Shown here: positions 4,799-46,430 of the stretch, in pieces
How positions within the stretch are numbered: position 1 is the first letter of the stretch
Layout of the letters: the number at the start of each line of letters is the position of its first letter
Origin: Gossypium raimondii
Taxonomy: Eukaryota; Streptophyta; Magnoliopsida; Malvales; Malvaceae
Assembly: GCF_025698545.1 (NCBI RefSeq)
Contig: NC_068569.1
Coordinates: 24,056,001-24,120,000, forward strand
Direction: 5' to 3'
DNA length: 64,000 nt
Program-made: the position numbers and the translations under genes
Notes under the pieces: model-generated
What the model saw: the letters and a program-made list of their open reading frames with translations, nothing else
The model's database searches: none
What the model was told of the DNA's origin: nothing

Positions 4799-5900
4799 CC
4801 ATTGATTATTTGCCTACAAAATATTTGTGCTCAGTGAAGATCCTGGGAGCAAAACTTCGATCCTTGTGATTGAAATTCGTGAATAGCTATTGGCTCCACA
4901 AAGGATGCAGTTCAGTAGCTCGAGTTATTTATCTGTTCAGCCAACGCAATTTACAAGAAGTTGGTACCACTGCGTGATTTGTGTATGATACTTGCTGGTG
5001 GGCACCAACATGCTTTTGCTCGAGGCCTCGTACTGTTTTTGCTAAAAATCTGTCTCTGCAAAGTTTTTTTCCTGCTATCTTGCAAAGGAGATGGATGATT
5101 TTGGGGTAGGATCTATGAAACTGTACCCTAGATCCAGCCACAAGCTTCGAAGGTAAGAATAAATCATGAAGTCAAAGTTTTGTACTAAACAACTTGTCAT
5201 CTTTATGGTTGCTTTTACATATAATTATATTTGTAGATGTGTCATCCAGGAATTGATTGCTGACATCGAGTATGGTTCTGCCTAACCAACATCACTTAGC
5301 TTGATTACTGAGAGCAAATTGTTGCAATCTGTGGCATGACCTGGATGAAAGTCTTTGATACATTTGGGCAGTCATCCTGGTTTTTTGGCCCTTTGGTCCT
5401 GTATCTCTCTCCACAACATTCAGCTGATCCGCAGTTCCTGAATGCATTTGTTTATGCTCTTCACACTTGAAAGATGCTAACTTCATTACATGCCTTAAGG
5501 TTGCAAATGCTTGCAAAAATCTTGAAGTCTGCTCTGCAGGATGTTTATGCAGAACCGACACGGTTGTGAAAAGCACAGCCGGTACAAACAGATGAAGTAA
5601 ACTGACAAATTTTGAGGTCCGCAATGTACGGGTTAGTTAACTGAATATTCTTTCTTTTCTTTGTTGCCGTTTTGTGTCGGCAAAGATTAGGTGATTTTCT
5701 TCCATAATTCTGTATAGAAAAGGAAGAAAAGAGTACAGAATTTGTTTTTAAGGGAAAATCTCATAGCATAGGAATTGTGATGTTAACTGACTTTGTACAT
5801 ACACCTTCTTCAGGTTCAGTATCCTGTGGAATCATAGAATTCTTTCACAATGTTCTAAAGCTTTGTTCTTAAAAAGAAAAGAAAAGAAAAAAAATCCAGA
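4799..5900 (+). other. 3' flank and probable 3' UTR of the helicase gene
   Basis: No coding exon is visible. The tract is less AT-rich than the intergenic DNA further right and looks transcribed. Short open frames on the minus strand (4929-5141, 5292-5624) have no recognisable domain and are taken as chance. An A-rich AAAAAGAAAAG run near 5870-5895 could mark the transcript end, but no single poly(A) signal stands out. Confidence 0.35.
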
Positions 5901-6514
5901 GATTTGAAATTCCAAGTACCCAGGATTTATGTTATTTCTCTTGTGTTTGTCAGGTATATGATAAAAAGACAATTTAAATATTAAACTGGGGACAGATCAT
6001 CTTTTATTCTTGTTTCGGTAGAGAGAAGCATGTAGAAGGTGATACTACATAAAATTTATATAACTCATCTGAATTCGTTAGACGGAACATGATGAAATTG
6101 ATTGATTTGAAATCGTCTCGGAAATGAAGGAATCAAATTCCATTCCATGTGTTCGGATCTTATCCGATAATGCTGTCGCCATCGAGCACACGTTAACATA
6201 ACCTGGCACCATTTAAAGCAAGGTATCGGCAAAGTTGGACGGAGCTGTTTCAGGGCCACTTTGTAGCTTTGTGCAACTAGTAAGTCCACGTAAACCTACC
6301 CCCATAACTTTGTACCATCTTCAATGGCAACAGCAATGAACACTGGTGATAGTGTTTTTAAGAAAAAGCATATTTGCAGTCCTCTAATATCTAAGAAATC
6401 AATCTAATATCGAAGAAAACTCAATTCACTTCGAGTCGAATTTTACTATTTCAGATCGATTCAATTGGTCGGTTTTTATTTTTGTCCTTTTTTTTCAAAA
6501 ATAACTTTAATATG

Positions 6515-6895: not shown

Positions 6896-8127
6896 GGTCA
6901 TAGATTGAGGATTTCGATGTCATTAACTTATAAAAATAAAAAGTAAAATTTAGAAGAGGAAAAATTTAATCCGAATTTAACTTATAAATAAAAAAATTGA
7001 ATCAAATCAAATTAGGGTTCATTTAGAGGACATTAAAATTTACAATGTAATATTGGTATAGATTCAAATGTAACAATGATGATACATCAATAAATATTTC
7101 TTTTGAGACTTGGAGGTAAGGAGTGAAATAGTTAGATTAAATCTAAACTCTCATGCCCTGCAACATAATAAACTTGTTGCTAGATTAAGAAGCTGTTGAG
7201 AACTTCATCAAGTATTAATAAAAATAAAACATAAAATCATGGTAATATATCAAATAGTATTTCCATCTATACTAAAAAATTATTGAAAATAACATTAACA
7301 AAGTTCCCTTGACTTAGATCACTTTCGTTTCAAGGAGGAAATAACAGATTAGTATGGAAAGTTGATTTCAACGAGGTCTTCACAATTAAAAATGTTTATT
7401 CCCTCAACTTGTCTCCACTGAAGACCTCTTTTCGAGAAGGCTCTCCATCAATGATAATATTTGCCCACTTTCCTAAGAAGATAGGGAAACCCCTAAGTAC
7501 CTCTTTTTACATTGCAGTGTTCGGCTCCCCTCGTGTTCTTCACTCCGATTCTCTCACAACTCATTCATCTCCGGTTGGCTTTTTCATTGGCTCCAAGGAA
7601 ATTGTATCAACACTCAAGATTGAATCAAGAAATTAACTCATCTTTAGAGGTTCTAATTCATGTCCTATAGGGGACGTTACAAGAATATCATATCTTCTCG
7701 GGCTTTTCATTCAAGGAATCAACCTGCTCTCAGCCTTGGTGATCACTTCTCCCATCGGTCTCTATCGTCAAAAGGACATGACTAGAGCAGCAGCTATTGT
7801 TTAAAACTCTAATGTGCTCCAACTGTTGTCCATTCAAAACTTCATGTTTCCCAGCAATATTCAGGCTAGAATTTTATCCTCCGTGCAATTCTTTTATCCC
7901 TTTAAGTCTCATAATAGACATGATATCATTCTTGGATGCACCAAAGTAGGGTGAAAACTTCAACCAGCATTGAAAGACACCTATAACCTCCTCCAATTTA
8001 TTACCATTGGACAACAGCCAGATGACAACCACATTCTAGGAAGAGAAACGGTGAAGTGGGCAACATGTGCTTCGAAGACTTTCTTTTGCTTCTCTTGGCC
8101 ATAAATATACCAAAATGATAGAGGTTC
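6896..8127. other. Intergenic, no recognised gene
   Basis: AT-rich until about 7300, then a less AT-rich stretch (7330-8100) with broken reading frames on both strands. The longest is 75 codons at 7409-7636. The compositional change suggests an old, decayed coding insert, perhaps from a retroelement, but no domain could be recognised. Confidence 0.3.
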
Positions 8128-8450
8128 CTTAACTATAACTTTTTTTATCACCTAATTATAAAAAATTACAAAATGATCACTCAAAATTTAATAAATTTAT
8201 TTTTTAGTCACTTAATGTTTAATTGTCTTTTTGGTTACCATCTGGCTAACATGACAATAGAAACACCTAAAAATCTAATATAGTTGAGTGACAAAAAAGA
8301 CAATTGAATAATTGAATAATAATTTATAACATTTCATAGTTGGATAGCCAAAAAGAAATTTACTAATAATTGGATGACCATTTTGTGACTTTTCATAATT
8401 AGATAACAAAAAAATTATCATTAGATGACTACCAATGTAATTTACCCTTT
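8128..8450. mobile_element. Foldback MITE-like inverted repeat
   Basis: The left arm (TTTATCACCTAATTATAA near 8145) is repeated inverted in the right arm (TTCATAATTAGATAAC near 8392). ACAAAATGATCA near 8168 pairs with TGACCATTTTGT near 8366. The outer ends are poorly preserved, so the borders are approximate. It lies about 450 bp downstream of the Ole e 1-like gene and has no coding capacity. Confidence 0.5.
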
Positions 8451-18600: not shown

Positions 18601-21600
18601 TCTTAACACTTCCCATTCACCATTTCTTCTTTGTTTTTCTCTCCTTTTGTTTCCATTCACTAAGAAACACTGAAGTTATGCTTCATACCCATATCGTAAA
18701 TTGATACACTTTTGTTTTTATCCCAACTTTCCTAGAAAGAAATTCATCTTTCTTTCAGGTTTGTTAGTATTCTTGTGTTGTTTACAGAATTGGGTATTGG
18801 TTTTCTTTTTCTTTTTCTTTTTTTTAAGCAAGAAGGGAAATTCTCGTTTTCCTTTTTTTGGATTGATTTTGTTTGGTTTGTCAAGTTTGATACAAAAAAA
18901 AGTTGTCTTTTTTTTAGGCCGGTTGGGTTTGTAATTTTGTTGATTGAGGTTTCAGTTTGGTAAGGTTGGTAAACAATAATTTTTGAACTTTTGGAGAGTT
19001 TTTAATGATGAGCTGTTTTGCTTTCTGAAGTTATGCTTTTGTTGAAATGAAATGTTTATGTGATCTTTCATCTTTGGTTACTGGAAGTGGAAGTGGAAGT
19101 GGAAGTGGAATCAACCATGAATAAATTTTCATCTTTAGCACTAAAAGTTTGATTTTTTTGATACCATCTTCACTAAAATAAGCTATAAGAGTGTAAGGGA
19201 AAAGTTCACAGTGTTGATCATACCAAATTCTGGTATGCACAAGCAAAAATAGCTTTATCATAGCATTTCTTTTTGGTTTGGTTTCAATTTAAATTTGTTT
19301 GATCATGATGTTGGTTCATTTATATGTTTAAGGAATCACAGTTACTTTTGAAGTCTCAATTCAGAATTAGACTGCCATTACTGAAACCTTGCACCCATTG
19401 ATGATGGTTGTTTTTGATGATATGCAGTATGTCTGAGGCCCAAAGAAGGTCAGCTGTGTCTGGTGGAAATAATGGATACGTAAATGGGGTATTGCCAATC
19501 CGGAGCCCGGCTACAATATGTGAAGTAGATGAATTTTGTTCTGCACTTGGAGGGAAAAAGCCGATCCATAGCATTTTAATTGCGAACAATGGAATGGCAG
19601 CTGTCAAATTTATACGTAGTATTAGAACGTGGGCTTATGAAACATTTGGTACCGAAAAGGCAATCCTGTTGGTGGCAATGGCTACTCCTGAGGACATGAG
19701 AATCAATGCAGAGCATATTAGAATTGCCGACCAGTTTGTGGAAGTTCCCGGGGGGACAAATAATAATAACTACGCCAATGTGCAGCTCATTGTAGAGGTG
19801 TGTATAGTGACCTCCGGTAACATTTGCTTGCTTCCGAATTGTTCTTATGTTGATGAATTGCCTCTCAAAAAGCTTGTTTTAGTTCAAAGTACAAAGGAAA
19901 TTTACCACTCTTATGATGTCCTTGCTTTAAATAATTGATTTTCATCCAAATGATTCTGATACATACGACTTCATAGATGTCAATCGCTCAGTAACAGATG
20001 TTTGCATGTAAAGTCCTAGGACATTGAAAGAGAACTGATAAGCAATACGAAGGTTTCTTTTTCTTGCTACTAAAGGTTCATTGGAGTTAGTTCCCGCTTA
20101 CTATGTTTAATTATATGATGAAATTCTATATTTTTTGTCAAATCATATCATGTGTTACTCAGATGGCAGAGATAACACATGTTGATGCGGTTTGGCCTGG
20201 ATGGGGTCATGCATCAGAAAACCCTGAGCTGCCCGATGCACTGAATGCAAAAGGAATCATTTTTCTTGGGCCTCCATCTGTTTCTATGGCAGCATTGGGA
20301 GATAAGATTGGTTCATCATTGATTGCCCAAGCAGCAGATGTACCCACCCTTCCATGGAGTGGTTCTCATGTAATTATCTTCTTTTTTAATATTAAAAAGT
20401 GTCCTTTCCATGGCAGTTTCTCATGCACAGTTGCTACATTCCTGTTTTCCAGGTGAAAATTCCTGCAGAAAGTTGCCTAGTTTCTATTCCAGATGAAATA
20501 TATAGTAAAGCATGCGTTTATACGACAGAAGAAGCAATTGCAAGTTGTCAAGTTGTTGGTTATCCCGCAATGATTAAGGCATCTTGGGGTGGCGGCGGTA
20601 AAGGCATAAGAAAGGTTCATTCATTCATGAAATGTTTTGATTCTCTGACAATTGCGATTTTTACTTATATCCAATGCTCTAGCTCATTCCCTTTTAAAGT
20701 AACTGCTCTTATTTTGGTAAAATTATCATTGATTTAAACACTTTTCATATTATTCGAATTGGTTTGAAGTTTTTGCATGCCTTGTGATGTTTGGTTTTCT
20801 AGGTTCATAGTGATGATGAAGTTAGGGCACTATTCAAGCAAGTGCAAGGCGAAGTTCCAGGTTCACCTATATTTATAATGAAAGTTGCTTCACAGGTGAG
20901 ATTTTAAGCAACGATTCATTTCACAGAAGTGGCAGGAATATAGATGATTTTTTTCTGACAAAACTGTTTGGTATATATATTCTTTCCTGAATTAGAGCCG
21001 GCATTTAGAGGTCCAGTTACTTTGTGATCGGTATGGGAATGTTGCTGCTTTGCATAGCCGTGACTGTAGTATTCAGAGGCGGCACCAGAAGGTCAGTTTG
21101 TTTCTTTGAGGCTATATTTGAATGTTAGTCTTCCATAACAAAAGTGATTCCAGTCAAAGGGAGTTTAATGCTTCAGTTGCATCATATTTGAGACTTAACA
21201 AGATCTGACATCAGCATTCTTTATGTGAAATAGATTATCGAGGAGGGTCCAATCACTGTAGCTCCGTGGGAGACAGTAAAAAAGCTGGAGCAGGCAGCTA
21301 GAAGGTTAGCTAAATGTGTGAATTATGTTGGAGCTGCAACTGTTGAATATCTTTACAGTATGGACACTGGCGAGTACTACTTTCTAGAGCTCAACCCTCG
21401 GTTACAAGTATGTCATAACGATTTTACCCATAGTTCTAGAACATGTCATATGGAGTTAGGTGCCACATTCAGCCAATCAACTTTGTGCTTTTGCTTTTCT
21501 GTTTGTTTTATCCTTTTAGTGTGGTTCTGCAATATATTAATTGTATCTTCATTTGGAAAGGATGTTAAATACAAGTGCTAGCTGGTTTCGGAATCAGTAT

Positions 21601-24600
21601 TGAGCTGAAATAACCATTTATAAAAGCATTCAGTTTTACAACCACAAAGGGTGTAGATTTATTCTACAACATGGTTGGTGGATTCTTAAATTATTTTGGT
21701 TCAAAGAGGTTAAGAAGAATCTTGTGATTTATTTGGCGGACGGATTTTTTGCCTTCTCACTTTCCTTACATAATCAATAATTAAAAGCTTTTGCAACAGG
21801 TGGAGCACCCTGTAACTGAGTGGATTGCTGAAGTGAATCTGCCAGCTGCTCAGGTTGCGGTCGGGATGGGTATTCCTCTATGGCAAATTCCTGGTATGAT
21901 GCCAATATTCAATACTTCTCGTAAACCCTTTTTCACATGATCATGTAATTTATGTAAATGATATCTGTGTGCTTGATTTGATTAGAAATACGGAGATTTT
22001 ATGGAGTGGAACATGGTGGAGGTTATGATTCTTGGAGAAAAGTTTCTGTTGTTGCCACTTGTTTTGATTTTGACAAGGCTGAATCAACAAGGCCTAAAGG
22101 TCACTGTGTAGCTGTGCGTGTGACGAGTGAGGATCCTGATGATGGTTTTAAACCTACCAGCGGAAAAGTACAGGTCAGCCTTACTAAGTTCTCAAAAAAA
22201 TAAGTTGTACTTCAAATATCTCAATTAGTGCTTTGTTTGCTTCATTTATTTTCTTTAAGTTTGTATTGAGCTCCATGACTTTGTACAGGAGTTGAGTTTT
22301 AAAAGCAAGCCAAATGTGTGGGCTTACTTCTCTGTCAAGGTAAGCTTTATTTTTCGGAAAAAAAATATTGGTTTACAGAATCTAAAACTTAATACAATGA
22401 TTGTGCAATAATACTTTACAGTCTGGAGGAGGCATTCATGAATTTTCAGATTCTCAATTTGGTAAGAATTACACTGATATATTTCGATTTTTCTATGAAT
22501 GTTTTTGGACAAGATAGCCGCTTTGTATATAGTTATTCCTTACAAAGATATCATTATTTCTGATAAGAGTGAAATCTTACATTAGGACATGTCTTTGCTT
22601 TTGGGGAATCCAGAGCTCTTGCTATAGCAAATATGGTTCTTGGGTTGAAAGAAATTCAAATCCGTGGAGAAATTCGTACAAATGTTGATTACACAATTGA
22701 CCTTTTACATGTATGTTTATCAAATGAACCATCGTTTTTCGTTATAAAAATGTACGACTTTAGGACTACCAACCACTAACAGCTAAAATGCTATACAGGC
22801 TTCAGATTACCGAGAAAATAAAATCCACACTGGTTGGTTGGACAGTAGAATTGCTATGCGAGTTAGAGCAGAAAGGCCTCCGTGGTATCTTTCAGTTGTT
22901 GCCGGAGCTCTCTATGTAAGTGCTCATATATCAGCATTCAATGTTCTTATTATAGAGTAAGTATTTTACACTGTTTATTTATCTCAGAAAGTGTCGGCCA
23001 GCAGTGCAGCTATGGTTTCAGATTATATTGGTTATCTTGAAAAGGGTCAAATTCCTCCCAAGGTACAGTGCTAAGCCTGAGTTGCTTCTTTTATGTAGGT
23101 CTTTGTTAACATACTGATGTCTGTTGGTCTTGATTTCAGCACATATCACTTATGAATTCTCAAGTGTCTTTGAACATTGAAGGAAGCAAATATACGGTAT
23201 GAGTTTTCAATTATGTCATTGTACCACTATTTTAAGGTTTCCTTTTCTAATTCTCAAGAAATTCTAGCGATTTTGGGTATCATGTTGATGAATCATGCAT
23301 ATTAACATTTTGAAAAAAAAAATGTTTTTAGATTGACATGGTTAGAGGGGGAACAGGAAGTTATAGGTTGAGAATGAATGAGTCGGAGATTGAGGCAGAG
23401 ATACATACATTACGTGATGGTGGTTTATTGATGCAGGTAAGCAATTTCCCTCTAGCATTTTACTACATGTTTTACGTTTGCTTATGTTCTTTATTTCTTC
23501 TGCAGTTATTAGAACCTCTTACTTCTGGTCTTTGTATTACAACCGTCCTTCTGATGCTTACTTTTCAATTTATTATAGTTGGATGGAAAAAGTCATGTCA
23601 TTTATGCAGAGGAAGAAGCCGCTGGTACTCGCCTTCTAATTGATGGAAGGACTTGCCTGCTACAGGTGCAACATATCCCTTTCTTTCATACACTTTGAAT
23701 CCTCCCCTTGACCCAACTTGAAGGAAAAAACAACCCCACGTTTTCCTTTGGTCCAAGAAAATAAGTTGTGAGGTTATTATTTATGATTTTCTTCTTGTTG
23801 ATTTTCCCCCTTTATCCAGAAAGATCACGATCCTTCAAAATTAGTGGCTGAAACACCATGCAAACTGCTTAGATTTTTGGTTTCTGATGGTAGTCATATT
23901 GATGCCGACATTCCTTATGCTGAGGTTGAGGTTATGAAAATGTGCATGCCTCTTCTTTCACCTGCTTCAGGAGTTATTCAAATAAAATCATCTGAAGGTC
24001 AAACAATGCAGGTAATATGTTCTATATGAGAAATATAAAAGTTGAGTTTTTTGGGAAAACTTAGGAAGCCCTTGTTCTTGCAGGCTGGTGAGCTTATTGC
24101 TAGCTTGGATCTGGATGACCCTTCAGCTGTTAGGAAAGCTGAACCATTCCAGGGGAACTTTCCGGTACTGGGGCCGCCCACTGCAATTTCTGACAAAGTT
24201 CATCAGAGATGTGCTGCAAGTTTAAATGCAGCCCGCATGATTCTCGCTGGTTATGAGCATAATATCAATGAAGTGAGTATTTCTCTATCCCACAGTAATC
24301 TCAAGGGGATGAAATAGGCCAGGAATCACAAAATTCTCTTCCGCAGTAGTTTTTCCCTTTTAAACTTAAGTTTCTTTAACTAACTAGCTCTCAAACCATG
24401 GGTTACAGGATTTCGATTTTTAATTCCTTAAAGTTTTTACAAGTGATATATAATATATGGCTAATAAATGGAACTAAAGAGTTCAGAATGCTACAATATC
24501 AGCCAAACTTTAAATAATGCTTACTGAAAATAATAGTCAATTAAATATAAAAAGGAATAACAAAGAATATGAATTGTTCAAAGGTCTTAGTGATGCCTTT

Positions 24601-27600
24601 AGATAGAGAGCAAAGACTGAGTAAAACATTCAACAAAGGGTGAATGGAAAAAGCTCGGATCCTAGGTCCAAGCCATTCTTAGATATTCTTGAAATTTGAT
24701 TCATGATATCAATTTGGCTGACACATGTTACAGGTAGTTCAAAGCCTTCTAAATTGCCTTGACAGTCCCGAGCTGCCTTTCCTTCAATGGCAAGAATGCA
24801 TGTCTGTTTTGGCAACCAGGCTTCCCAAAGATCTTAAAAATGAGGTAAATATTCATTATCTAGAATTTATCTCGGCTTTGGTGCTTCGGGAAGTGACTTT
24901 AGACGTGTATCTTTTGATCCAATTTTATTTTTATTATTACCATTGTATCAGCTGGAATCGAAGTATAAAGGGTTTGAAGTGATTCCAAGCTCCCAGAATA
25001 TCGACTTTCCTGCAAAGCTATTGAAGGGAGTCCTCGACGTGAGTTTCCTTATCCCACAATCCTTATCTTGAAGTTCACTTTCTGTATTGGGAAAGTTAAA
25101 CACTTAGGGCGTCTACTTTGGTTGCAGTCCCATCTATCCTCTTGTTCTGAGAAAGAAAGAGGATCCCTAGAAAGGCATATTGAACCATTGATGAGCCTTG
25201 TGAAGTCATATGAAGGCGGAAGAGAAAGTCATGCTCGTGTTATTGTGCGTTCCCTTTTCGAAGAGTATCTATCTGTTGAAGAGTTATTCAGTGACAACAT
25301 CCAGGTAACTTTGTCGAAAAGAAATACATATTCTTCATAATGGTATTACTGTAGTGCATATATCTTTGTCATGGTTATTTCTTTTGACAATACAGATATG
25401 AATTGCCTTTATTTTGAAGTGTTGAGACATCAATGCATAAATTTTGAACATCATATTTGCACTTCCCTATCTTGTTACAGCCTTCAAGTTTTCGAATGTT
25501 TGTTATTCTGTTTTCATGTTTATACAAGTCATTTCAATGCGATATCACAGGCTGATGTGATCGAACGTCTTCGGGTTCAGTATAAGAAAGATCTACTAAA
25601 GGTTGTGGACATTGTGCTTTCTCATCAGGTACTGCCCCTTTTATAGTTGGCTTTTCTGCCCTTTTTCCTATCATAAAATATAGGCTAAAATAGCAAAACC
25701 CCCATGAACTTTACCAATTTACTTAAGTATAATTTTATTAAACCCAAATAAGTCCTTAATCTTTAATTGTACCAAAATAGGTCCTTAGCCTTTTAACTTA
25801 TACCTAAAAAGCCCTTATCAACCGTCAGTTGAAATAAGGGCTTATTTGGTACAGATTAAACGTTGCAGGTTTATTTGGATACCATAAAAATTAGGGGCTT
25901 AGTTAACAGAAGTGGAATAGTTCAGGGGATCTTTTAATATTTTAGCCTAAAATATTCCATACTCATACTGTACGGTTTGTGCTTTGCTTGCAGGGTGTCA
26001 AGAATAAAAATAAACTGATACTCAGACTCTTGGAACAACTGGTTTATCCGAACCCTGCTGCATATAGAGATCAACTAATCCGATTCTCTGCACTAAATCA
26101 TACTAGTTATTCTGAGGTTAGATATTTTACTAAGTTACTAATTTAATAGCTTACAATAATATGATTTACTATCGTGTTCTTTGTATTCATCATTTCGGCT
26201 TTCCAAACTCAATTCCTTGGAGGACAATATTTGATGTTTTCTCTTTAAGGCTTATTTTTGAATTTGTGCATATAGTTGGCACTCAAGGCTAGTCAATTAC
26301 TGGAACAAACCAAATTGAGTGAACTTCGCTCCACCATTGCTAGAAGCCTTTCTGAATTAGAAATGTTTACTGAGGATGGTGAAAGTATGGACACGCCCAA
26401 GAGGAAAAGTGCCATTAATGAAAGAATGGAGGATCTCGTTAGTGCTCCTTTAGCTGTTGAAGATGCTCTCATAGGTTTGTTTGATCATAGTGATCACACA
26501 CTTCAGAGGCGGGTTGTAGAGACATATGTTCGGAGGCTTTACCAGGTATTAAGGCTTAACTTTCACAGCCTCAGCTTATGTTATTTCGAGACCATTACAT
26601 CATTTTTTAACTGTTTGTATTTGTCACCAGCCGTATCTTGTAAAGGAGAGTGTTCGTATGCAGTGGCATAGATCTGGTCTTATTGCTTCATGGGAGTTCT
26701 TGGAAGAGCATATCGAGAGAAAGAATGAGTCAGAAGAAAAAATGTCTGTTGAGAAACATAGTGAGAGGAAATGGGGCGCCATGGTTATAATTAAATCTCT
26801 CCAATTTTTGCCTGCAATTATCAGTGTCGCTTTAAGGGAAACAACTCATAACCTTGAGAAAGCAACTCCACATGGATCTCTTGAGCCAACAACCTTTGGT
26901 AATATGATCCATATTGCACTTGTCGGCATAAACAATCAGATGAGTTTACTTCAAGATAGGTATATCGAGTGGTCCTCTGAAATTTGCTTGTATTGAAATC
27001 CATAGTTATATAAAATTATACAACCTATTAAAATCCAAAGGCAAGCGTATATCCAATAATAGTTGGAGTGGTTGATTTTCTATTTTTAAAAGTAAATTTT
27101 CTATTTTTAAAAGTAACTTCTTGAATGTAGGACAAAATCATAGATTTTCTTGATCAAAATTCTACTTTTACTTTTTTTCAGTGGTGATGAGGATCAAGCT
27201 CAAGAGAGAATCAAGAAATTAGCGAAAATACTTCAAGATAAAGAGGTAGGGTCAAGTCTACGCTCGGCTGGTGTGGGGGTAATTAGCTGTATCATACAGA
27301 GGGATGAAGGGCGAACACCAATGAGGCACTCGTTTCATTGGTCAGCTAAAAATCTATATTACGAGGAAGAACCTCTTTTGCGACATCTAGAACCTCCTCT
27401 ATCCATATACCTCGAATTGGTCTGTTATTTTAACTGGTACTTGTTTTCCTTCTAAGAAAAAAAATATTTCTATGCACCTTTGATCTGAGGACTGTTAATT
27501 CTTAATCCAGGATAAGCTTAAAGGCTACGAGGGCATAAGGTATACCCCATCACGTGACCGTCAATGGCACTTATATACTGTTCTAGACAAGCCACACGCG

Positions 27601-30600
27601 ATCCAGAGGATGTTCCTCAGAACACTTGTCAGGCAGCCTACATCCAATGATAGGCTTACAGCATATTCGGGACATGATGTTGACATGATGCATAATCAAT
27701 TGTCTATGTCTTTTACTTCAAAGAGCATTTTTCGGTCCATAATGGCTGCTATGGAGGAGTTGGAACTTAACGTGCACAATGCTACTCTAAAGCCCGACCA
27801 TGCTCAGATGTACCTTTGTATCTTACAAGAGCAAGAGATAAATGATCTCATGCCTTATACCAAGTAATTAAGTCTATATTCTTATTTTTGTTCCCTTTCG
27901 CCTCCTCCACTTCTGCAAGATCGGTAAACTTCTTCTATTGCACCAGGAGAGTTGACATAGATGTTGGACAAGAAGAAGAGGCAGTAGAGACGATCTTAGA
28001 AGAACTGGCTCGGGAAATTCATGCGTTTGCCGGTGTAAGAATGCATAAATTAGGTGTTTGTCAGTGGGAGGTGAAGCTCTGGATAGCATCTTTTGGACGA
28101 GCAAATGGTGCTTGGAGAGTTGTAGTGACAAATGTGACAGGTCAGACCTGTACTGTGCATGTAAGTTTCTATCCGGTAAATGGTGGTGCTTCGAAAATTG
28201 TCCACCACACTCTAGATTAATGGTTTGAGAATTGAGAACTATATCTATTATCCGACTAGAGCTAGTCTAAACCTTAAGCTCATTGAAAATGGAGTTTAGA
28301 TGAATATAAGTAAAACAAATTAATATGGCCGTGTTATACTTTCAGATATACCGAGAACTAGAGAATACCAGCAAATACCAAGCGGTATACCATTCCCTTT
28401 CTGTAAGGGGTCCTTTGCATGGTGTACCAGTTAATGCCCACTATCAGCCTTTGGGTGTTCTTGACCGGAAACGTCTATTAGCAAGGAAAAATGGTACCAC
28501 TTATTGCTATGACTTTCCATTGGTAAGCATAGTGCTATAGCATGCAGTCCATATTGGCTACTTTGCTTGTTCTTTTCCTTTTTTATGCGCAATAACCCGT
28601 AGCAGATAAACTTTATCACTGAGAATGAAGCTACTTGCAGGCATTCCAGATGGCCTTGGAACAGTCATTTGCATCGCGATTCCCAGGTTTTAAAAAACCC
28701 AAAGATAAACTTCTTTGTAAGGTCACGGAACTTGTATTTGCTGACCAAAAAGGTTACTGGGGCACTCCTCTTATTCCAATCGAACGCCAGCCTGGCCTCA
28801 ATGATGTTGGCATGATAGCCTGGAGCATGGAAATGTCTACTCCCGAGTTTCCTTCTGGAAGAACAATTTTGATAGTAGCAAATGATGTTACCTTCAAAGC
28901 TGGTTCTTTTGGTCCAAGAGAGGATGCATTCTTTCTTGCCGTGACCGATCTTGCATGCACTAAGAAACTGCCTTTAATTTATTTGGCTGCTAACTCTGGT
29001 GCCCGTATTGGGGTAGCTGAGGAAGTCAAAGCCTGCTTTAAAGTTGGTTGGTCCGATGAATCCAGCCCTGAGAACGGTTTTCAATATGTTTACTTGACCC
29101 CTGAGGATTATGCAAGGATTGGATCATCTGTCATTGCACATGAGATGAGGCTAGCCAGTGGAAAGACCAGGTGGGTGATCGATGCTATTGTGGGTAAGGA
29201 GGATGGTTTGGGGGTCGAGAACTTATCAGGTAGTGGGGCCATTGCAAGTGCATACTCAAGGGCATACAAGGAAACCTTTACCTTAACATATGTGACTGGT
29301 AGAACTGTGGGTATAGGTGCTTATCTTGCTCGTCTTGGCATGCGATGCATACAGAGACTTGACCAGCCGATTATTTTGACTGGTTTCTCTGCATTGAATA
29401 AACTTCTTGGTCGTGAGGTTTACAGCTCCCACATGCAACTTGGTGGACCTAAAATCATGGCAACAAATGGGGTTGTACATCTCACTGTCTCGGATGACCT
29501 TGAAGGGGTATCAGCGATTTTGAACTGGCTAAGTTGCATTCCTCCTCATCTAGGTGGGCCAATACCCGTTTTAAATCCTTCTGATCCTCCAGAACGACCT
29601 GTGGAGTACTTCCCAGAAACTTCATGTGATCCTCGTGCTGCTATTTGTGGTACTTTAGATAGTAATGGGAACTGGAAGGGGGGTATTTTCGACAGGGATA
29701 GCTTTGTCGAGACACTGGAAGGATGGGCCAGAACAGTTGTGACAGGAAGGGCAAAGCTTGGAGGAATCCCTGTAGGAATAGTAGCTGTCGAGACGCAGAC
29801 AGTGATGCAGGTTATCCCTGCTGATCCGGGACAACTTGATTCACACGAGAGGGTTGTCCCTCAAGCTGGACAGGTATGGTTTCCGGATTCTGCCACAAAA
29901 ACAGCTCAAGCAATAATGGATTTCAATAGGGAAGAGCTTCCACTTTTCATCCTTGCCAATTGGAGAGGCTTTTCGGGTGGGCAAAGGGATCTTTTCGAGG
30001 GCATCCTTCAGGCTGGGTCAACCATTGTTGAGAATCTCAGTACATATGGACAACCCGTCTTTGTTTACATTCCCATGATGGGTGAGCTTCGTGGTGGGGC
30101 ATGGGTTGTTGTGGATAGTCGGATCAATTCAGACCAGATAGAAATGTATGCCGAGCGCACTGCTAAAGGTAATGTCCTTGAGCCGGAAGGAATAATCGAA
30201 ATCAAGTTTAGGAAAAAGGAACTAATAGAGTGCATGGGAAGGCTCGACCAACAGCTTATAAGTTTGAATGAAAAACTTCACGAAGCCAAGAGCAATGGAG
30301 GCCATGCCAAGGCAGAGTCTCTGCAGCAGCAAATACAATCACGTGAGAAGCAACTGTTGCCAGTGTACACGCAAATAGCCACTAAATTTGCTGAACTTCA
30401 CGACACTTCTTTGAGGATGGCTGCAAAAGGGGTAATAAAAGAAGTTGTTGACTGGGACCGTTCACGCTCATTCTTCTACAGAAGACTGCGCCGGAGAATT
30501 TCTGAGAATTCTCTAGTCAAAACTGTAAACGATGCAGCCGGTGACCAACTGTCATATAAATCTGCAATGGACTTGATCAAGAGATGGTTTTTTGATTCCA

Positions 30601-31400
30601 ATGTTGCAAAGGGCAGAGAGGATGCTTGGGTTAATGATGAAGCTTTCTTTTCATGGAAGGATGATACGAGAAACTACAACGAGAAGCTACAAGAGCTTCG
30701 TTTCCAAAAGGTATTGCTTCAGCTTACGAATATTGGCAGTTCAGCTTCGGATATGCAAGCTCTACCCCGAGGCCTTGCTGCCCTTCTAAGTAAGGTAAAC
30801 CATCTTGCTTCCCTTCTAAAATATCCCTTCTTGTTTTTATAGCATTCTTGTCTATATCAGAACTGAAAATGATTGTTTTAATCCAACGCAGATGGAGCCA
30901 TCAAGTAGGAAACAAATAGCTAACGAAATCCGTAAGGTTCTGAGTTGATTAGACGTCTTCATGAGAATAATGTCCAACAATCTTCTCACTCACTCATTTA
31001 AATTTTGGTAACTTGATGCGAGTTGATAATCAAACCATGCCTGTAGTGGAACTTCTGCAACAATTCAAGTATTTATGATGGCAATTCGGTCCAACTACGT
31101 GAAGCTTCATGAGAATTGGAGACGTTGGTGGAGTCTGCAGCAAAGTCCATAGCTTTCGTAAGCGTAAATTTAGGGGGGTCCAGGTTGATGGAGTATTAGA
31201 TTTTTAGTGGCATTAGGAAATCATCATGCATTAGCAATCTAGTTTAATGGTTTTGCTGCAGATCTCATGAAAACTTTGCTTGTACGAATAGTTTCCATAA
31301 TCTATGTTTACTCAAACTTGGCTTTGAGTATGTATCCAACGTAGGTATGTTTTATCTTTTATAAGTTTTTCCATGTATTTGTAAAGTTTGCAAAGGGTGA
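18590..31400 (+). CDS. ACC1: Homomeric acetyl-CoA carboxylase (cytosolic, ACC1 type)
   Basis: It makes malonyl-CoA from acetyl-CoA, bicarbonate and ATP in the cytosol, for fatty-acid elongation, flavonoids and other uses. Coding starts at ATG 19429, just after an acceptor at 19427, so a leader intron (donor near 18759) is likely. Coding exons (31): 19429-19797, 20163-20369, 20453-20614, 20803-20895, 20996-21091, 21234-21407, 21800-21893, 21986-22173, 22289-22339, 22422-22461, 22586-22710, 22799-22915, 22988-23062, 23140-23196, 23332-23436, 23579-23665, 23820-24011, 24084-24272, 24734-24844, 24952-25038, 25128-25304, 25551-25628, 25994-26116, 26276-26545, 26631-26959, 27182-27419, 27511-27863, 27947-28160, 28346-28522, 28641-30794, 30892-30948. 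All junctions are GT/AG and phases agree, giving 2262 residues; Arabidopsis ACC1 is about 2254. Domains in order: biotin carboxylase with ATP-grasp loop GGGGKGIRK (20590-20614), biotin carrier site EVEVMKM (Lys about 720), central region, carboxyltransferase (mainly exon 30). The N-terminus (MSEAQRRS) does not look like a plastid transit peptide. Confidence 0.97.
19083..19112 (+). repeat. GGAAGT hexanucleotide microsatellite in the ACC1 leader intron
   Basis: About five tandem GGAAGT-type units lie in the presumed 5' UTR intron. A pyrimidine-rich stretch sits upstream near 18800-18835. This is likely polymorphic in length. Confidence 0.7.
25683..25947. mobile_element. 265-bp MITE in an ACC1 intron
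   Basis: It lies within the intron between exons 25551-25628 and 25994-26116. The ends GGCTAAAATAGCAAAA and the inverted copy TATTTTAGCC give imperfect terminal inverted repeats of about 35 bp (both arms also share CCCYTGAACT). The flanks are taaaatata (25674-25682) and taaaatatt (25948-25956), an 8/9 match that suggests a Mutator-like 9-bp duplication. The splice sites remain intact, so the gene should be unaffected. Confidence 0.7.
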
Positions 31401-32520: not shown

Positions 32521-32590
32521 AAATTAATTATAATTTTATCAAAATTATATTAGGTTTCGTGTTTATGAGTTTTTAAGATAAAATCAAAGC

Positions 32591-32968
32591 AGGATGCTTT
32601 ATCAGAAGAATTTCTGAAATCGCGCCCACATGGATGCGCTTTTGCTACAGTAGGTCCTGAAAAAATAATTTTGAGTTGACGTTTCTGAGAAAATAGTATA
32701 AAAAAACGCTTCAGGTAGGATGCTTTATCAGAAGAATTTCTGAAATCGCGCCCACGTGGACACGCTTTTGCTACAGTAGGTCCTGAAAAAATAATTTTGA
32801 GTTGACGTTTCTGAGCAAATAGTATAAAAAAATGCTTCAAGCAGGATGCTTTATCAGAAGAATTTCTGAAATCGCGCCCACGTGGACGCGCTTTTGCTAC
32901 AGTTGGTCCTGAAAAAATAATTTCGAGTTGACGTTTCTGAGCAAATAGTATAAAAAACGCTTCAATCG
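32591..32968 (-). repeat. Three-unit 126-bp tandem repeat (42-codon period)
   Basis: Units start at 32591, 32717 and 32843, each opening AGGATGCTTTATCAG, an exact 126-bp spacing. The copies differ at only a few positions. Because 126 is divisible by three, a minus-strand frame stays open through two units and gives a repeated 42-residue peptide containing IIFSGPTVAKA. The units share the GCGCCCACGTGG word with the neighbouring hairpin. Confidence 0.9.
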
Positions 32969-33009
32969 ACTAGCTCATGATGGAAATATCAATTTTATTT
33001 AATACTTAC

Positions 33010-40467: not shown

Positions 40468-40479
40468 TAACACTACACC

Positions 40480-40920
40480 AAAACAGGCTTTTAGCGGCGC
40501 TTTTAGTGGCGTTTAGATAAAAAACGCCGCTAAAAATCAAGCATTAGCGGCGCTTCTGAAAAAACGCCACTAAAGATTGAGCATTAGTGGCGTACTTTGG
40601 AAAACGCTGCTAAAAATGAGCATTAGCGGCGTTTTTCAAAAAGCGCCACAAAAAACCTAAGCACAACGACGTCGTTTTCTGAGTTTTTGGGGCTTTAGTG
40701 GCGTTTTTTAAAAAGCGTTGCTAATGCATGGGGCTTTAGCGGCGTTTTTGAAAAGCGCCGCTAATGCTTAGGGTTTTAGCGGCGTTTTCCAAAAAGCGCC
40801 GCAAAAAACCTAAGCCCAACTACGCCATTTTTTGAGTTTTAGGGGCTTTAGTGGCGTTTTTTAAAAAGCGTCGCTAAAGCATGGGCTTTTGCGGCGTTTT
40901 TGGAAAAGCGCCGCAAAAAA
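40480..40920. repeat. Left subterminal GCGGCG repeat array of the CACTA element
   Basis: Many alternating copies of TTAGCGGCGTTTTT and AAAACGCCGCTAA, spaced 20-50 bp, with point variants (AGTGGCG). They form short hairpins. A second, smaller cluster occurs at 41910-42100. Confidence 0.85.
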
Positions 40921-41149
40921 TATTTTATCTATTTATTATTATTTAATTGGTTTATTATTTAATTGGTTTATTTATATTAATTAAAATTCAAATTATTTTT
41001 AATTGAATATTCAAAAATTAAAATACTATTATTTAAAATAATTTTAAAGTTTTTTAGGTATATGACTGATTTTTTAATTTATATATTATATAATTTCTTA
41101 TATAATCATAAAAAGATAGTATTAATTTTAAAATATTGAATTAATTATT

Positions 41150-41460
41150 ATTGTTTAGGGTTTAGGGTTAAGGGTATATGGTTTAGGGTTTAAAGTTTAG
41201 GAGTTACTATTTTAAGGTTTATAGATTATGGTTTATAGTTTATGCGTTTAAGGTTTAAGGGTTACGATTTATGTTTTAAGATTTATAGATTAAGGTTTAG
41301 GGGTTAGGGGTTAGGAGTTCAGGGTTAAGAGTTAAGGGTTATGGTTTATGGTTTAAGGGTTGGGGTTTAATGTTTAGGGGTTAGGGGTTTAAGGTTTATG
41401 TTTTATGATTCAATGTTTAGGGGATTGGGGATAGGGGTTAAGAGTTTAGGGTTTAGAGTA
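41150..41460 (+). repeat. Degenerate telomere-like repeat inside the CACTA element
   Basis: Repeated GTTTAGGG, GGTTTAAGG and GGTTATGG words over 300 bp, resembling decayed (TTTAGGG)n. Confidence 0.6.
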
Positions 41461-42229
41461 ATTAATATTTTTTAATTTATATATTAAATAATTTCTTATA
41501 TAATTGTAAAGGAGATAATATTAATTTTAATATATTAAAATTATGATTATAGTTTAAATTATTTAAGAGATTTATTATATGGTTTACTTGAGATTTGTTA
41601 AATGATGAAATTTTATACAATCAATTAATGCTTTTATATTTCAAAATATTTAATCTAAACCATTTGATATATTTAAATATTAGATTAAAAAACATTGATA
41701 AATAAATAAATAAAAAGTAATGATTGATATGGATGGGTAACTATCTATTTTGCATAGGATCAAATTATAACAAATAAAAATAAAAATTATATAAAAGATT
41801 TAAAATTTATCTAATTCTTTTAAATATTACTTAATTTTTCAAAAACTATTTATTTAAAATTGATATGAATTATATAATAATTAAATATAAAATTGTAAAA
41901 AAAAGTTAATTATTAGCGGCGTTTATAAGAAAAACGCCGCAAAAGGTAAGCAATAGCGGCGTTTGGACCAAAAACGCTGCAAATATGTATTTAAAATTTT
42001 CAAAACGGCCCGTTTCACTACAAAAATTTAATTTTTAGTGGCGTTTTTGTTGAAAACGCCACAAAGTTATTCAATTAGTGGCTTTTTTTTATAAGCGCCC
42101 CAAATATTCTGACGCGTGATTTTCATTTCAAATTCCCGCTAAAAATCCCTTCTGAAATTTTGCTCAAATGCTTTTTAAACTTTTTCATCTTCCTTTTAAT
42201 TGTTTATTCCATCAACTCGTCTCGAAGTC

Positions 42230-42429
42230 TCAAACCGATTCAATAGCAGTGAGTTGACTTAGCAGCCGCTTATTTCCGTATGGGGATGGAAACGAAGGAT
42301 GAGTTCACGACTCATGAGCCAGAGCAGGCCCAAGTGGGATCTCGAGGACCGAGGTTAGTAATTAACGAGATGGTGATGAGGAACTTCAAGTCTTATGCCA
42401 GTGAGCAGCGCGTCGGTCCCTTTCACAAG
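42230..42429 (+). pseudogene. Captured SMC4 (condensin) first-exon fragment
   Basis: From ATG 42281 (MGMETKDEFTTHEPEQAQ) the frame reads into PRLVINEMVMRNFKSYASEQ and RVGPFHK, then a GT donor at 42430. This matches the start of the ABC head of the condensin subunit SMC4, just before its Walker A exon. The next exon is absent. Flanking 5' UTR-like sequence seems to be included, so a genomic piece with the natural splice site was taken up. Confidence 0.8.
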
Positions 42430-43036
42430 GTTATATTTTCTTTTATCGTTTAATTTTTATAGTTTTTATTTGGTTTCTAGTAAAGTTTGGAAATTGAGAA
42501 GGAAAATTGCAAAATTTATGTAATAATTTCGCGGACTCAACTTGGAAATTGAGAAGGAAAAAATGAAGAACTGAGAAGGAAATTAAAAATTGCATGACTT
42601 CAACTCGAATAGCTTTCTTTTTTTTTCTCCTCTTTGTTGTAATTTTAACGGTTTCCTTTTGGTTACTGAGAAAGCACTGGAAACCGAGAAAGAAAATTGC
42701 AGATTGATGAAATTATCTCAAATTTATATTTTCGATTACTTTTTTTTTTCATAGTTAGATGTAGAAAGTAAGCTTTTAGTTAGTTTGTTAGTAGTCTAAC
42801 TCCTGCTTGGTTGCCAAGAAAAAAAAATGTAAAATGAGAAAGAAAATAAAAATGATATGATAATTGCACGAATTGAATTTGAGATAATTTATTTTTTCTG
42901 TTATCAGTGTTTCCTTCTTCTGGTTGCGAGAAAGAGGTGGAAAATTGAGTGGGAAGTTGCTAGTCTATATGAAAAGTTCTAAAATTTAACTCAAATTAAA
43001 AGTAACAAGAAGTTTACATGACTTGTGTTAAGCATC

Positions 43037-43285
43037 CAACCTAAAACCAATTGGCTATAAGTGGAAGGGCCTGATTTAATGTATTTAATGGGTGCTCGAA
43101 GTCAAACAAATTTATTTAAGGTAGCTGAGATCCAACCAACTCCAGCCTTAAAAAACAGAAAGAAAAAAGAACAGAAGAGATTTTTTGACCCTGTTCTGGT
43201 TAGCTGTTATGAGATTCTTGCAGGTTCTTCAAATGCAATTGCAAATTTTGATAGTAATATACTGCTAACAGAAGCCTGCAACTAG
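43037..43285 (+). pseudogene. Unidentified captured coding fragment
   Basis: A plus-strand frame reads WKGPDLMYLMGARSQTNL, later KNRKKKEQKRFFDPVLVS and CYEILAGSSNAIANFD. Codon use and lack of low complexity suggest real former coding sequence. The donor gene was not recognised. It ends in a stop at 43283-43285. Confidence 0.4.
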
Positions 43286-43699
43286 AAAGACAAGGAGCAT
43301 GTCGAGATTCTCATTTCAGTGACTGTGCTTCTATTTGCAACAATAATGAAAAATTTAAAGGTCAGAAAACTTATGTTGAATACGAACATGCCTAACGTTT
43401 TACCAACTCAAACCAAAAGAAAAATCGGATAGCTTATTTGTTTAATTATTACGTAAAAGATGATTATTTGCTGTCCATGTTCCTATTAGTAGCCTTGTGC
43501 ACTTCTCTTACATGTCCTCGGAATTCATAACCTCTAATAGTACTCAAAATTATGCTCTTTAAGTCCAAAACAAAATTACGTATTTTCTTAGCTCTTTAAG
43601 GTCATGCAATTAACCCTTTTTTTCTTATTTCTTCTTTCCTTCTATTCTTTTATGTATTATTTTCTTATTATTGAAACCAGAATGTGTTTTATTGGACAG

Positions 43700-44066
43700 G
43701 TGCGTGCAGTTCGCTGTGACAATGGAGAAAAGACTGATATCTCTAGAGTCTTTTTGGTTGAACAAGTAAAAGGAATGTTGGATAAGATTCAACAGAACCT
43801 ATTCGATGTGGCAAAACAAAAAGAGATGCCTGCATTGAAGTTGTAAAACGTGGGATGAGTTTGTAAAACCTGTATTTTGTTAGGCAACAACATGAGCTGG
43901 ATCATATTCTAATCTCTCGAGGCATATGTAGCTCATTTTTCTTAAATGATGTTTTATGTTTTGTATATATAAGAGGTGGAGAAAGATGTGAAAGCTCGAA
44001 CAAGGGGTGAGATGGGAGCAGCTAAGTCTCTTTGTACCCCATTCGAACAACCTGAACTCTCAGAAG
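43700..44066 (+). pseudogene. Captured cytosolic prolyl-tRNA synthetase fragment, two exons, frameshifted
   Basis: After an acceptor at 43699 the frame reads VRAVRCDNGEKTDISRVFLV and DKIQQNLFDVAKQK, the C-terminal anticodon-binding region of plant proline-tRNA ligase. The A-run near 43820 has lost one base, and the parent frame (RDACIEVVK) continues shifted. A second loss near 43846 breaks TWDEFV. A second exon (about 43972-44066) reads VEKDVKARTRGEMGAAKSLC, with PFEQPELSEG before a donor. An intron-like gap lies between them, so capture was from genomic DNA. Confidence 0.8.
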
Positions 44067-45153
44067 GTACTTGACTCCATCCATGCAGGCATTTATTTTA
44101 AATAATTTAAAGAATATGAAATTAACCCTTTTCCATCCAAATTTCTTTAGAGCAAACAAGGTTTTATATATAAAATTATATATATATATTGTCAATGATT
44201 ATGTTTGATTAATTCTGCTGGAGTTCAGAACCTTGACAGAGCTGCTATATAAGAAGCTTAGTTGGCATTTCAATTTTCAATTCATCTATAGAAAAATAAC
44301 ATTTAGTCTTTAAATTTGTAAAATTTAAACCCTGATTAAAAAATAATTTATAAAATAATTTTTAATTTTTTAATCAAATAGTTAAACCCTGATTTTGTTT
44401 TGGACTGCATTGATAACATTGACACAAAGGAATCATCATGACTTATGAACTTTCAATTTTACCTATTGGCTATAAGAATTTTATATAACGTTGCAGTCAA
44501 ATATTGGCTTTTCACCATATATAGAACTCCTAATTTCTTTATGTGGTTCATGTTATGCTCTAATTTATGTTTTATTTTTCATTATTATGATAGTGCATGG
44601 CTAATCCTTCTATATGCTTGTTTGATATTGCACCCATCTAAAGCACGAGTAAGCAAGCAACATAAGTTATTCAGCTGAAGGATTAGGATCAACTTTGCTA
44701 CTTAGTATGTACGAAGGTTAGGTTTTGCTTCTAGATACGTATTTCATTTTAGTATCAGTAGCTTTAGGTTATGAAATATTTATGTTTTTGTATTTTTATT
44801 ATTTATTGTGATTTGAGCTTCTGGCATTTTATATTATTGATTCTGAATACGGTGAAGTTGTTTTGGAGTTGTCAATCATTCTAAAATGGGGGCTCTTTGC
44901 GTCTGTGGCTTTTGAATCTACACTTGCTACTGCAGTTTTCTGGTGGTTGCTGATCTTATGATTGGTGTTTACTTTGGGGCCTTGTCCAATTAGGTTTTAT
45001 TTGGTTTGGAAAAACTTTAATATCTTATGCTTGTATTTGTTATTTTGGATATCCAATTTTACTCTTGTTTATCTATTGCATTAAGAAGACATTGTTTAGG
45101 GGTTTATTTCCTGATATCATTCACTTTACTCTTTCTCAAATTTTTGCTTCTAG

Positions 45154-45288
45154 GTGAGACACCGTTTAAGGAAAGATCATGGGATTGATGGTGGAATTCC
45201 TGTTGTTTTCTCTTTAGAGAAACCTAAAGCTCAGCTGCTTCCTTTTAGAAGACCAAGTGGTGAGGAAGACAACCCTTCAGATTATCAA
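45154..45288 (+). pseudogene. Captured exon of a TcdA/ThiF-like tRNA modification enzyme
   Basis: A 45-codon exon bounded by an AG acceptor (45152-45153) and GT donor reads VRHRLRKDHGIDGGIPVVFS and KPKAQLLPFRRPSGEEDN. It matches what I recall of the plant homologue of tRNA threonylcarbamoyladenosine dehydratase (E1-like fold), which has VRxRLR and VVFS.EKP at this point. The exon is in frame and undamaged but isolated. Confidence 0.65.
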
Positions 45289-45974
45289 GTGAGGATGTTT
45301 GCTTCTTACTTTTGCAGTTTTAAAGTACTCTGTTTGATCACCTAACATCATGCAGTGGGGAAATTCATCCAATATATTGAAGCAGAATTTGAAATGAGAA
45401 TTGAAAGTACATTTGGATGGAGCTAAAGTTGTGTTTCTTTTAGCAATATATTTGAACTTGCTGGTGTTAGGTCCCTGGTTTTTGCTATCTCTAGATTTAA
45501 GGGTAGAAGGAAAAGGAAAATATTTAGGTCTACATTAGTATGTAATCTACATGTTTAATCCAACAATTTAATGTGTTATTCTGCTGTCAGTTAGTACCTG
45601 GGCAGGTTCAACAATTTAATGCATTGTATTTTTTATTAGCTTGCAATGTGTATAGTCATAGGAGGTTCAACTAGTCAGTTTGTTTTTCAAATGTATTATT
45701 TATTTTAGTTTTGATTCTAAATTTTTATTTTTACTTTAATATTTACGACAACTTGAGTTCTAACTTTTGAATTTTAATTGTGTTATTAATTTATTATTTT
45801 AAAATTTAAAACTAAATTCATTCATTTTATATTTAGTTTTAAAGTTAAAATTTTCATAGAAAATTTAATTTAAATAATATTTTTATTTATCCTTAAAAAG
45901 TATATTTAAAGTTCAAAATTAAAAAATATAATATAATATAATATTTGATTAAAATATTTTTTTTAAAGGTTATG

Positions 45975-46400
45975 TTTTTAGTGGCGTTTTTGTGAGAAGC
46001 GCCGCTAAAGATATTATTTGATTAAAATAATTTTTTTTAAAGGTTATGTTTTTAGCGGCGTTTTTTGCGAGAAGCGCCGCTAAAGGTTTGTTCTTTAGCG
46101 GCGTTTTTTGCGAGAAGCGCCGCTAAAGATCATGATCTTTAGCGGCGTTTGTGGCAAAAGCGCCGTTAAAGGTCGTGGTCTATAGCGGCGTTTGTCGAAA
46201 AGCGCCGCTAAAGGTCGTGGTCTTTAGCGGCGTTTGTCGGAAAAGCACCGCTAAAGGTTGTGATCTTTAGCGGCATTTTTTCTAGAAACGCCGCTAAAGT
46301 TAGCGATGCAGTCTTTAGTGGCGTTTTTTCCGGCGCTTGTAAAAGCGCCGCAAATTCTTTTAGCGGCGTTTTTTAGCGCCGCTAAAGGCCTAAAAAAGCG
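45975..46400. repeat. Right subterminal GCGGCG repeat array of the CACTA element
   Basis: About a dozen TTTAGCGGCGTTT...GCGCCGCTAAAG hairpin units, better preserved than those at the left end. Confidence 0.85.
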
Positions 46401-46430
46401 CCGCTAAAAGCCTGTTTTGGTGTAGTGTAA

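Follow-up and report, generated by a model that had tools for sequence, protein, structure and literature searches.

A Pack-CACTA transposon of Gossypium raimondii that carries pieces of several unrelated host genes

The element and its cargo

The 64,000-nucleotide stretch of Gossypium raimondii DNA analyzed here (C5:24056001-24120000, hereafter the window) contains a 5,957-bp CACTA element at positions 40471-46427. This element is a Pack-CACTA transposon carrying pieces of several unrelated host genes; the kind is already known, and the element is a new member of a large mosaic Pack-CACTA family, which we explored by searching 281 contigs of the genome (750.8 Mb). Its left end, CACTACACCAAAACAGG, starts at 40471, and the reverse complement of CACTACACCAAAACAGG ends at 46427; this 17-mer has no other occurrence within the window. 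The terminal inverted repeat (TIR) is perfect over 34 bp, and TAA stands on both flanks as a 3-bp target-site duplication (TSD), in agreement with an earlier reading of the letters alone (the sequence-only reading), which had described a CACTA element with well-matched ends and a perfect taa duplication. Units of the form TTAGYGGCG and CGCCRCTAA are found in the end regions and nowhere in the 58,043 window bases outside the element; on the 5′ side they lie at 40471-41000, with a few more within 41880-42110. A TIR beginning with CACTA, a 3-bp TSD, and subterminal repeats in direct and inverted orientation place the element in the CACTA (En/Spm) superfamily. The 5′ part also contains degenerate telomere-like ttaggg runs (41157-41470), a stretch matched in other family members. 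Within the element, the longest stop-to-stop frame is 89 amino acids, and an intact transposase is therefore unlikely. Searching Rfam at gathering scores gave no match in the window.

The leftmost host piece derives from SMC4. Its exon 1 starts with an ATG at 42280, and the coding sequence (42280-42429) runs up to a splice donor at 42430; this frame matches the SMC4 N-terminus in PDB (best E 7e-6) and had no match in a plasmid collection. The source gene lies on the minus strand of contig C9, spanning at least 3887753-3896414, where SMC family exons were found and a Walker A exon follows exon 1. Window positions 42120-42998 are 91% identical to this gene, a divergence of about 9%. We also considered as the SMC4 gene a locus on C11 at about 6.42 Mb (97-99% alike), and rejected it: exon 1 adjoins CACTA sequence at that locus, and no subsequent SMC4 exon was seen. 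The middle-repetitive piece that follows in the window (42996-43212) lacks 382 bp that are present in this C11 relict, and part of it was matched at seven other places (95-99%). The best match of the next piece, fragment C, outside the element family is C13:29274561-29274928 (96%), where no protein was recognized. A 74-aa frame (43061-43285) spans the middle-repetitive piece and enters fragment C; we take this to be the unidentified frame of the sequence-only reading.

The next piece comes from a prolyl-tRNA synthetase (ProRS) gene. It comprises exon A (43700-43871), whose 3′ end and splice donor are deleted, and exon B (about 43973-44066). The ProRS frame of the window itself gave no PDB match and no relevant Pfam match; the longer ProRS exon of a sibling copy, L027, matches ProRS in PDB (E 5e-10). 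Outside the family, the best match is C6:50227454-50228331, 96% identical over exon A and 90% beyond. That locus shows what we take to be an additional upstream ProRS exon, and an intact gene could not be confirmed there.

The 58-bp filler at the junction with the last piece holds a second copy of that piece's first 10 bases (AACCCTGATT). The piece itself derives from a TcdA gene on C11 (locus L033), to which it is about 97% identical: donor positions 5821-6114 and 7481-8399 are joined between window positions 44678 and 44679, and exon pieces lie at about 44385-44439 and at 45154-45288 and 45591-45602. The donor gene has a ThiF domain (Pfam) and extends beyond the captured part. One of its exons matches tRNA threonylcarbamoyladenosine dehydratase 1 in PDB with an E of 9e-13, and the next matches it weakly (E 0.01); the window's own TcdA frame had no PDB match and no relevant Pfam match.

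Overall, the PDB and Pfam matches of the window, of L027, and of the donor L033 confirmed the SMC4, prolyl-tRNA synthetase, and TcdA-like pieces named in the sequence-only reading, and the window's host fragments indeed share one orientation. That reading had also called for a donor search with each fragment, and the best matches outside the element family fall on four different contigs: C9 for SMC4, C13 for fragment C, C6 for ProRS, and C11 for TcdA. The fragments were not found contiguous in a normal gene, and we rejected the interpretation of the stretch as such a gene, given the four contigs. The element thus has the properties of a Pack-TYPE, and specifically Pack-CACTA, transposon: it is non-autonomous, it holds host coding DNA (SMC4, ProRS, and TcdA), it is multicopy, and its sources are identifiable elsewhere, with the limits that the C6 source of ProRS is not confirmed as an intact gene and that fragment C has no recognized gene.

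Features of the element and its flanks, in window coordinates
Feature	Position	Strand	Remark
Left TSD, TAA	40468..40470	.	
Left TIR, perfect 34 bp	40471..40504	+	
5′ CACTA part	40471..42119	+	subterminal repeats, AT-rich stretch; partly common to other family members
SMC4 fragment	42120..42998	+	160 bp upstream of ATG, exon 1, part of intron 1
Middle-repetitive sequence piece	42996..43212	+	
Fragment C, no recognized protein	43207..43586 (end approximate)	+	best match outside element family on C13
ProRS fragment	43614..44326	+	exon A, intron remnant, exon B
58-bp filler, ProRS/TcdA junction	44327..44384	+	
TcdA (tRNA-t6A dehydratase) gene fragment	44385..45602	+	matches L033
3′ CACTA part with subterminal repeats	45603..46427	+	
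Right TIR, perfect 34 bp	46394..46427	-	
Right TSD, TAA	46428..46430	.	

Elsewhere in the window, positions 19405-30842 on the plus strand, about 9.6 kb upstream of the element, hold exons of what is presumably an acetyl-CoA carboxylase-like gene, and frames at 1273-4798 belong to what we take to be a SEN1/MAGATAMA3-like helicase. A minus-strand frame at 32550-32969 consists of three near-identical repeats of about 42 amino acids, probably a tandem repeat.

Related copies and the assembly of the cargo

Using window positions 44380-45960 as the query for family members, we obtained 48 matches, with 40 of 735 candidates scored, so that all counts are lower bounds. Around the TcdA piece, matches longer than 800 bp were obtained at 28 or more loci, a figure that includes the window and the donor gene on C11. 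We scanned 17 sequences (the window and 16 listed loci, among them the donor gene, L033) for element ends, allowing up to three mismatches. Both ends were found in ten of them, and in all ten the 3-bp flanks match (TAA, GAG, TAA, AGT, AAT, CTC, TTT, ATG, GCT, and CAA). Related copies with matching ends, for which the sequence-only reading had asked, therefore exist, and none of the two-ended copies lacked matching flanks; as no normal gene was found to hold the fragments side by side either, neither of the outcomes that this reading had named as refuting it was observed. In the stretches examined of L025, L027, L030, and L032-L035, at most one end was detected, L033 being the TcdA gene itself.

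Four copies are close siblings of the window element: L021 on C9, L022 on C5 at 52.05 Mb, L025 on C227, and L023 on C10. Their TcdA pieces are 98-99% identical to that of the window on C9, C5, and C227 and 95% identical on C10; the corresponding Kimura two-parameter (K2P) distances are 0.009-0.014 for L021, L022, and L025 and 0.043 for L023. The low divergence from the first three suggests recent movement. At a distance of 629 bp from the C10 sibling lies the 3′ end of a further, oppositely oriented family member (L023:7042-7671). On C4, three TcdA-containing copies on the same strand (27107515, 27119853, and 27132412) are spaced 12.3-12.6 kb apart and arose either by tandem duplication or through several insertions close together. 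One C4 copy, L035, holds reverse transcriptase/integrase frames that we presume, from their motifs, to be retroelement-like.

To compare the limits of the TcdA piece, 16 element sequences (the window and 15 loci) were aligned to L033; the stretches of L040-L044 end before the right edge. In 15 of them, the right edge falls at donor positions 8394-8399, some 12 bp into an exon (the alignment of the remaining one, L024, stops at 8379), and it therefore goes back to one capture. The left edges differ and adjoin other genes: they lie at 3276 (L026 and L035), 3485 (L040), 4363 (L034), 4819 (L028), 5821 (L027, L029, L031, and the window group), 7243 (L030 and L032), and 7771 (L036). At this edge, L041 and L042 have the same arrangement as L035. 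Cargo is also common to copies with different edges, GidA-like in L036 and L034, and L030 and L032 have cargo in common with L040. A deletion of about 180 bp in the ProRS piece is present in five window-group copies and in L029 and is absent from L027 and L031, which makes L029 the nearest to the parent of the window group.

Two relicts hold partial versions of the cargo. On C13, at about 3.59 Mb (L038 and its continuation L046), fragment C and a longer ProRS piece are followed by CACTA 3′ subterminal sequence, and no TcdA piece was seen in the stretch examined. In the C11 relict at about 6.42 Mb, CACTA 5′ sequence is joined to SMC4 exon 1; beyond it lie further sequence and what is left of a CACTA 3′ part, and none of the subsequent SMC4 exons was seen in 8.2 kb. 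Of 15 elements (L024 being too short for this set), 10 have TcdA pieces at a K2P distance of 2.2-3.2% from the gene, and the other five, L032, L036, L023, L034, and L035, stand at 3.5-6.3%; a tree of these pieces has short internal branches with supports of 0.09-0.95. Set beside the roughly 9% divergence of SMC4 from its gene, the approximately 2-6% of TcdA indicates that the pieces probably differ in their time of capture.

We consider it very probable that this non-autonomous Pack-CACTA acquired its cargo stepwise, by the fusion of neighboring elements in the same orientation. A published tandem-fusion model predicts products that combine the left part of one element with the right part of another (PMC8903248; PMC13317346); the model originates with Catoni et al. 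2019, as cited in PMC13317346 and PMC8195511. Beyond the observed ends, duplications, siblings, matching source loci, and shared and nested breakpoints, we infer a tandem-fusion step, an order of fusions, and mobilization in trans. The element would have inserted at a TAA target by cut-and-paste, presumably mobilized by a CACTA transposase supplied from elsewhere, and each fusion of nearby, same-orientation elements would have retained the left portion of one partner together with the right portion of its neighbor. One parent (S, with its relict on C11) would have contributed SMC4 exon 1, a second (P, with its relict on C13) fragment C and ProRS, and a third (T) about 5.1 kb of the TcdA gene. 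Fusion of P and T would have produced elements like L031, L027, and L029; the window subfamily, in which S, P, and T follow one another from left to right, would then have arisen when S took the place of the left half. Capture of host exons by CACTA elements has so far been inferred from few cases; here, nested mosaics, parent-like relicts, and source loci in one genome make the fusion model testable break by break.

Several observations weigh against this reconstruction. No transposase was recognized in the element, and a transposase-bearing family member was not searched for. All elements were found via their right-hand part, so that fusions discarding this part would be missed and its constancy is partly an effect of the search. 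Neither the C11 nor the C13 relict has a TIR at up to four mismatches in the stretches examined, which makes them degenerate relatives and not proven parents, and the C6 source of ProRS is not shown to be an intact gene. The left edges at 7771 and 7243 may be later internal deletions, because the cargo beside them is shared with L034 and L040. Among the siblings, L023 lacks 42156-42526, i.e., the SMC4 exon, and L022 and L025 carry extra sequence between the 5′ and SMC4 parts.

Alternatively, the cargo might stem from template switching while the gap left by excision was being repaired, with distant loci copied into the middle of the element, a route we regard as possible but rather unlikely. 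The 10-bp repeat of the TcdA edge in the filler at the ProRS/TcdA junction is typical of error-prone repair, as are the frequent internal deletions. However, separate relicts exist, one with the SMC4 piece beside CACTA sequence and one with fragment C and ProRS and no TcdA piece seen. In addition, the right part stays constant while the left part changes, as fusion predicts, a point weakened by the search bias toward the right part. Stepwise fusion thus remains our preferred explanation of the cargo.

Splice sites and possible products

According to the sequence-only reading, the captured pieces keep their natural splice sites. Counting splice positions by hand and aligning five window-group copies, we found this to hold for six of nine sites: the SMC4 donor (42430), the ProRS exon A acceptor (43699), the ProRS exon B donor (44067), and, in the TcdA piece, an acceptor at 45153, a donor at 45289, and an acceptor at 45590. 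It fails for the other three. The ProRS exon A donor was lost through the shared deletion, and two sites are mutated in the window copy only (one of the five aligned): the ProRS exon B acceptor, changed from AG to AA with other AGs adjacent, and one TcdA donor, changed from GT to GA. In the window copy, L022, and L023, ProRS exon A is also frameshifted. Judging by the letters, in-phase splicing of SMC4 exon 1 onto ProRS exon A would still be possible in a transcript, whose frame would then reach a stop at 43846.

These features bear on what the element might do in its host. It is improbable that it serves as a source of small RNAs acting on SMC4, ProRS, or TcdA transcripts: the family is multicopy and its pieces retain about 91% (SMC4) to 97% (TcdA) identity to the source loci, but the fragments lie in sense orientation, and antisense RNA would need a second step. 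Still harder to credit is a functional chimeric gene, in which the SMC4 5′ flank and exon 1 would drive a transcript spliced into ProRS and TcdA exons to give a retained product. SMC4 exon 1 does keep its start codon and donor, the acceptor that naturally comes next (ProRS exon A) is undamaged and agrees with it in phase, all recognized fragments are sense, and the fragments of the soybean element Tgm-Express1 are spliced into transcripts (PMC1947982). However, neither the splice sites nor the frame are intact here: the loss of three of nine splice sites, two of them in the window copy only, and the frameshift in ProRS exon A make a useful chimeric product unlikely. Comparing SMC4 exon 1 of L021 with the gene, we counted four nonsynonymous and two synonymous codon changes, which gives no sign of constraint; the copies compared in frame were L021, L022, and L025, the window's own exon being set aside. 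Finally, no open frame of at least 110 amino acids occurs between 33748 and 58926, so that no neighboring gene was seen reading into the element and host-gene read-through is not indicated. Most likely, the element has no host function and is decaying as a mobile copy. That it might be no transposon at all, and instead an old cluster of pseudogenes or an artefact of the assembly, is scarcely credible: we found nothing in favor of this reading, and 3-bp flanks of differing sequence match in all ten two-ended sequences, on many contigs.

Fragment orientation and the closest known systems

The shared orientation of the window's fragments extends to the scanned stretches of other family members. 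We ran six-frame Pfam scans (E up to 0.01) over the cargo stretches of ten loci (L026, L028, L030, L031, L036, and L040-L044); the window's own minus strand and L021-L025, L027, L029, L032, L034, and L035 were left out. Together with the PDB or Pfam matches of SMC4, ProRS, and TcdA, this yielded 16 distinct host fragments: TcdA, ProRS, SMC4, XPG_N, Pescadillo_N, a protein kinase (SnRK2-like), STPPase_N, FATC, GIDA, zf-U1, LRR, Peptidase_M1_N, S1-P1 nuclease, Anticodon_1, Ribosomal_L3, and a DEAD helicase. All 16 lie on TcdA's strand of the element, and the 30 opposite-strand frames in the scanned stretches gave no Pfam match. Taking TcdA as the reference, 15 of 15 fragments are on the same strand (two-sided p 6e-5, a value that treats fragments of the same element as independent, which they may not be). 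Four of the matches (XPG_N, Pescadillo_N, Ribosomal_L3, and Peptidase_M1_N) are below the Pfam gathering score, Pkinase is just below it, and LRR is a short motif; without the first four and LRR, the count is 10 of 10 (p 0.002). L028 (C7:40794500-40804300) carries N-terminal parts of XPG-like, Pescadillo, and SnRK2-like kinase genes before its TcdA piece, all sense, two of these three Pfam matches being weak. The scan of L031 found nothing besides ProRS.

Within the stretches scanned, this orientation bias is the new part of our results, and it is unusual enough to be worth testing. We found no report of sense-only capture by CACTA elements in the literature searched, which did not extend to most subscription papers or to Kawasaki and Nitasaka 2004 (Tpn1). 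The captured introns of Tgm-Express1 are spliced from the host transcript (PMC1947982), and at least those fragments are therefore sense to it. As a tentative suggestion, to which we give less than even weight, the family may keep host fragments only in the element's sense orientation, either because capture and the direction of transcription are coupled or because antisense copies, which would form double-stranded RNA with their source genes, are removed. If so, selection on captured exons would be recorded naturally in these elements, and tandem-element fusion would be a motor that shuffles exons in one fixed direction. Should the one-way orientation hold in larger sets, it would separate selection against antisense capture from neutral capture and help predict which Pack elements make chimeric transcripts.

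Helitrons have neither a TIR nor a TSD, whereas the window element has both. The two are alike in the stepwise build-up of multi-gene cargo, as described for maize Helitrons (PMC3288121). The Tpn1 family of Ipomoea nil, also made up of CACTA elements, is described with conserved ends, subterminal repeats, 3-bp TSDs, many different captured host genes, and a putative autonomous member, TpnA1 (PMC5105172; PMC8195511). Soybean Tgm-Express1 is a 5.7-kb CACTA element with five unrelated host fragments that keep exons, introns, and splice sites, but it is inserted in an intron of a gene that is expressed, and chimeric RNAs contain its fragments (PMC1947982), whereas the window element is apparently intergenic and has lost three of nine natural splice sites. 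Compared with the Pack-CACTA elements described from Arabidopsis and maize (PMC8903248), the family presented here adds parent-like relicts and nested left edges within one genome, together with fragment orientation scored for part of the family.

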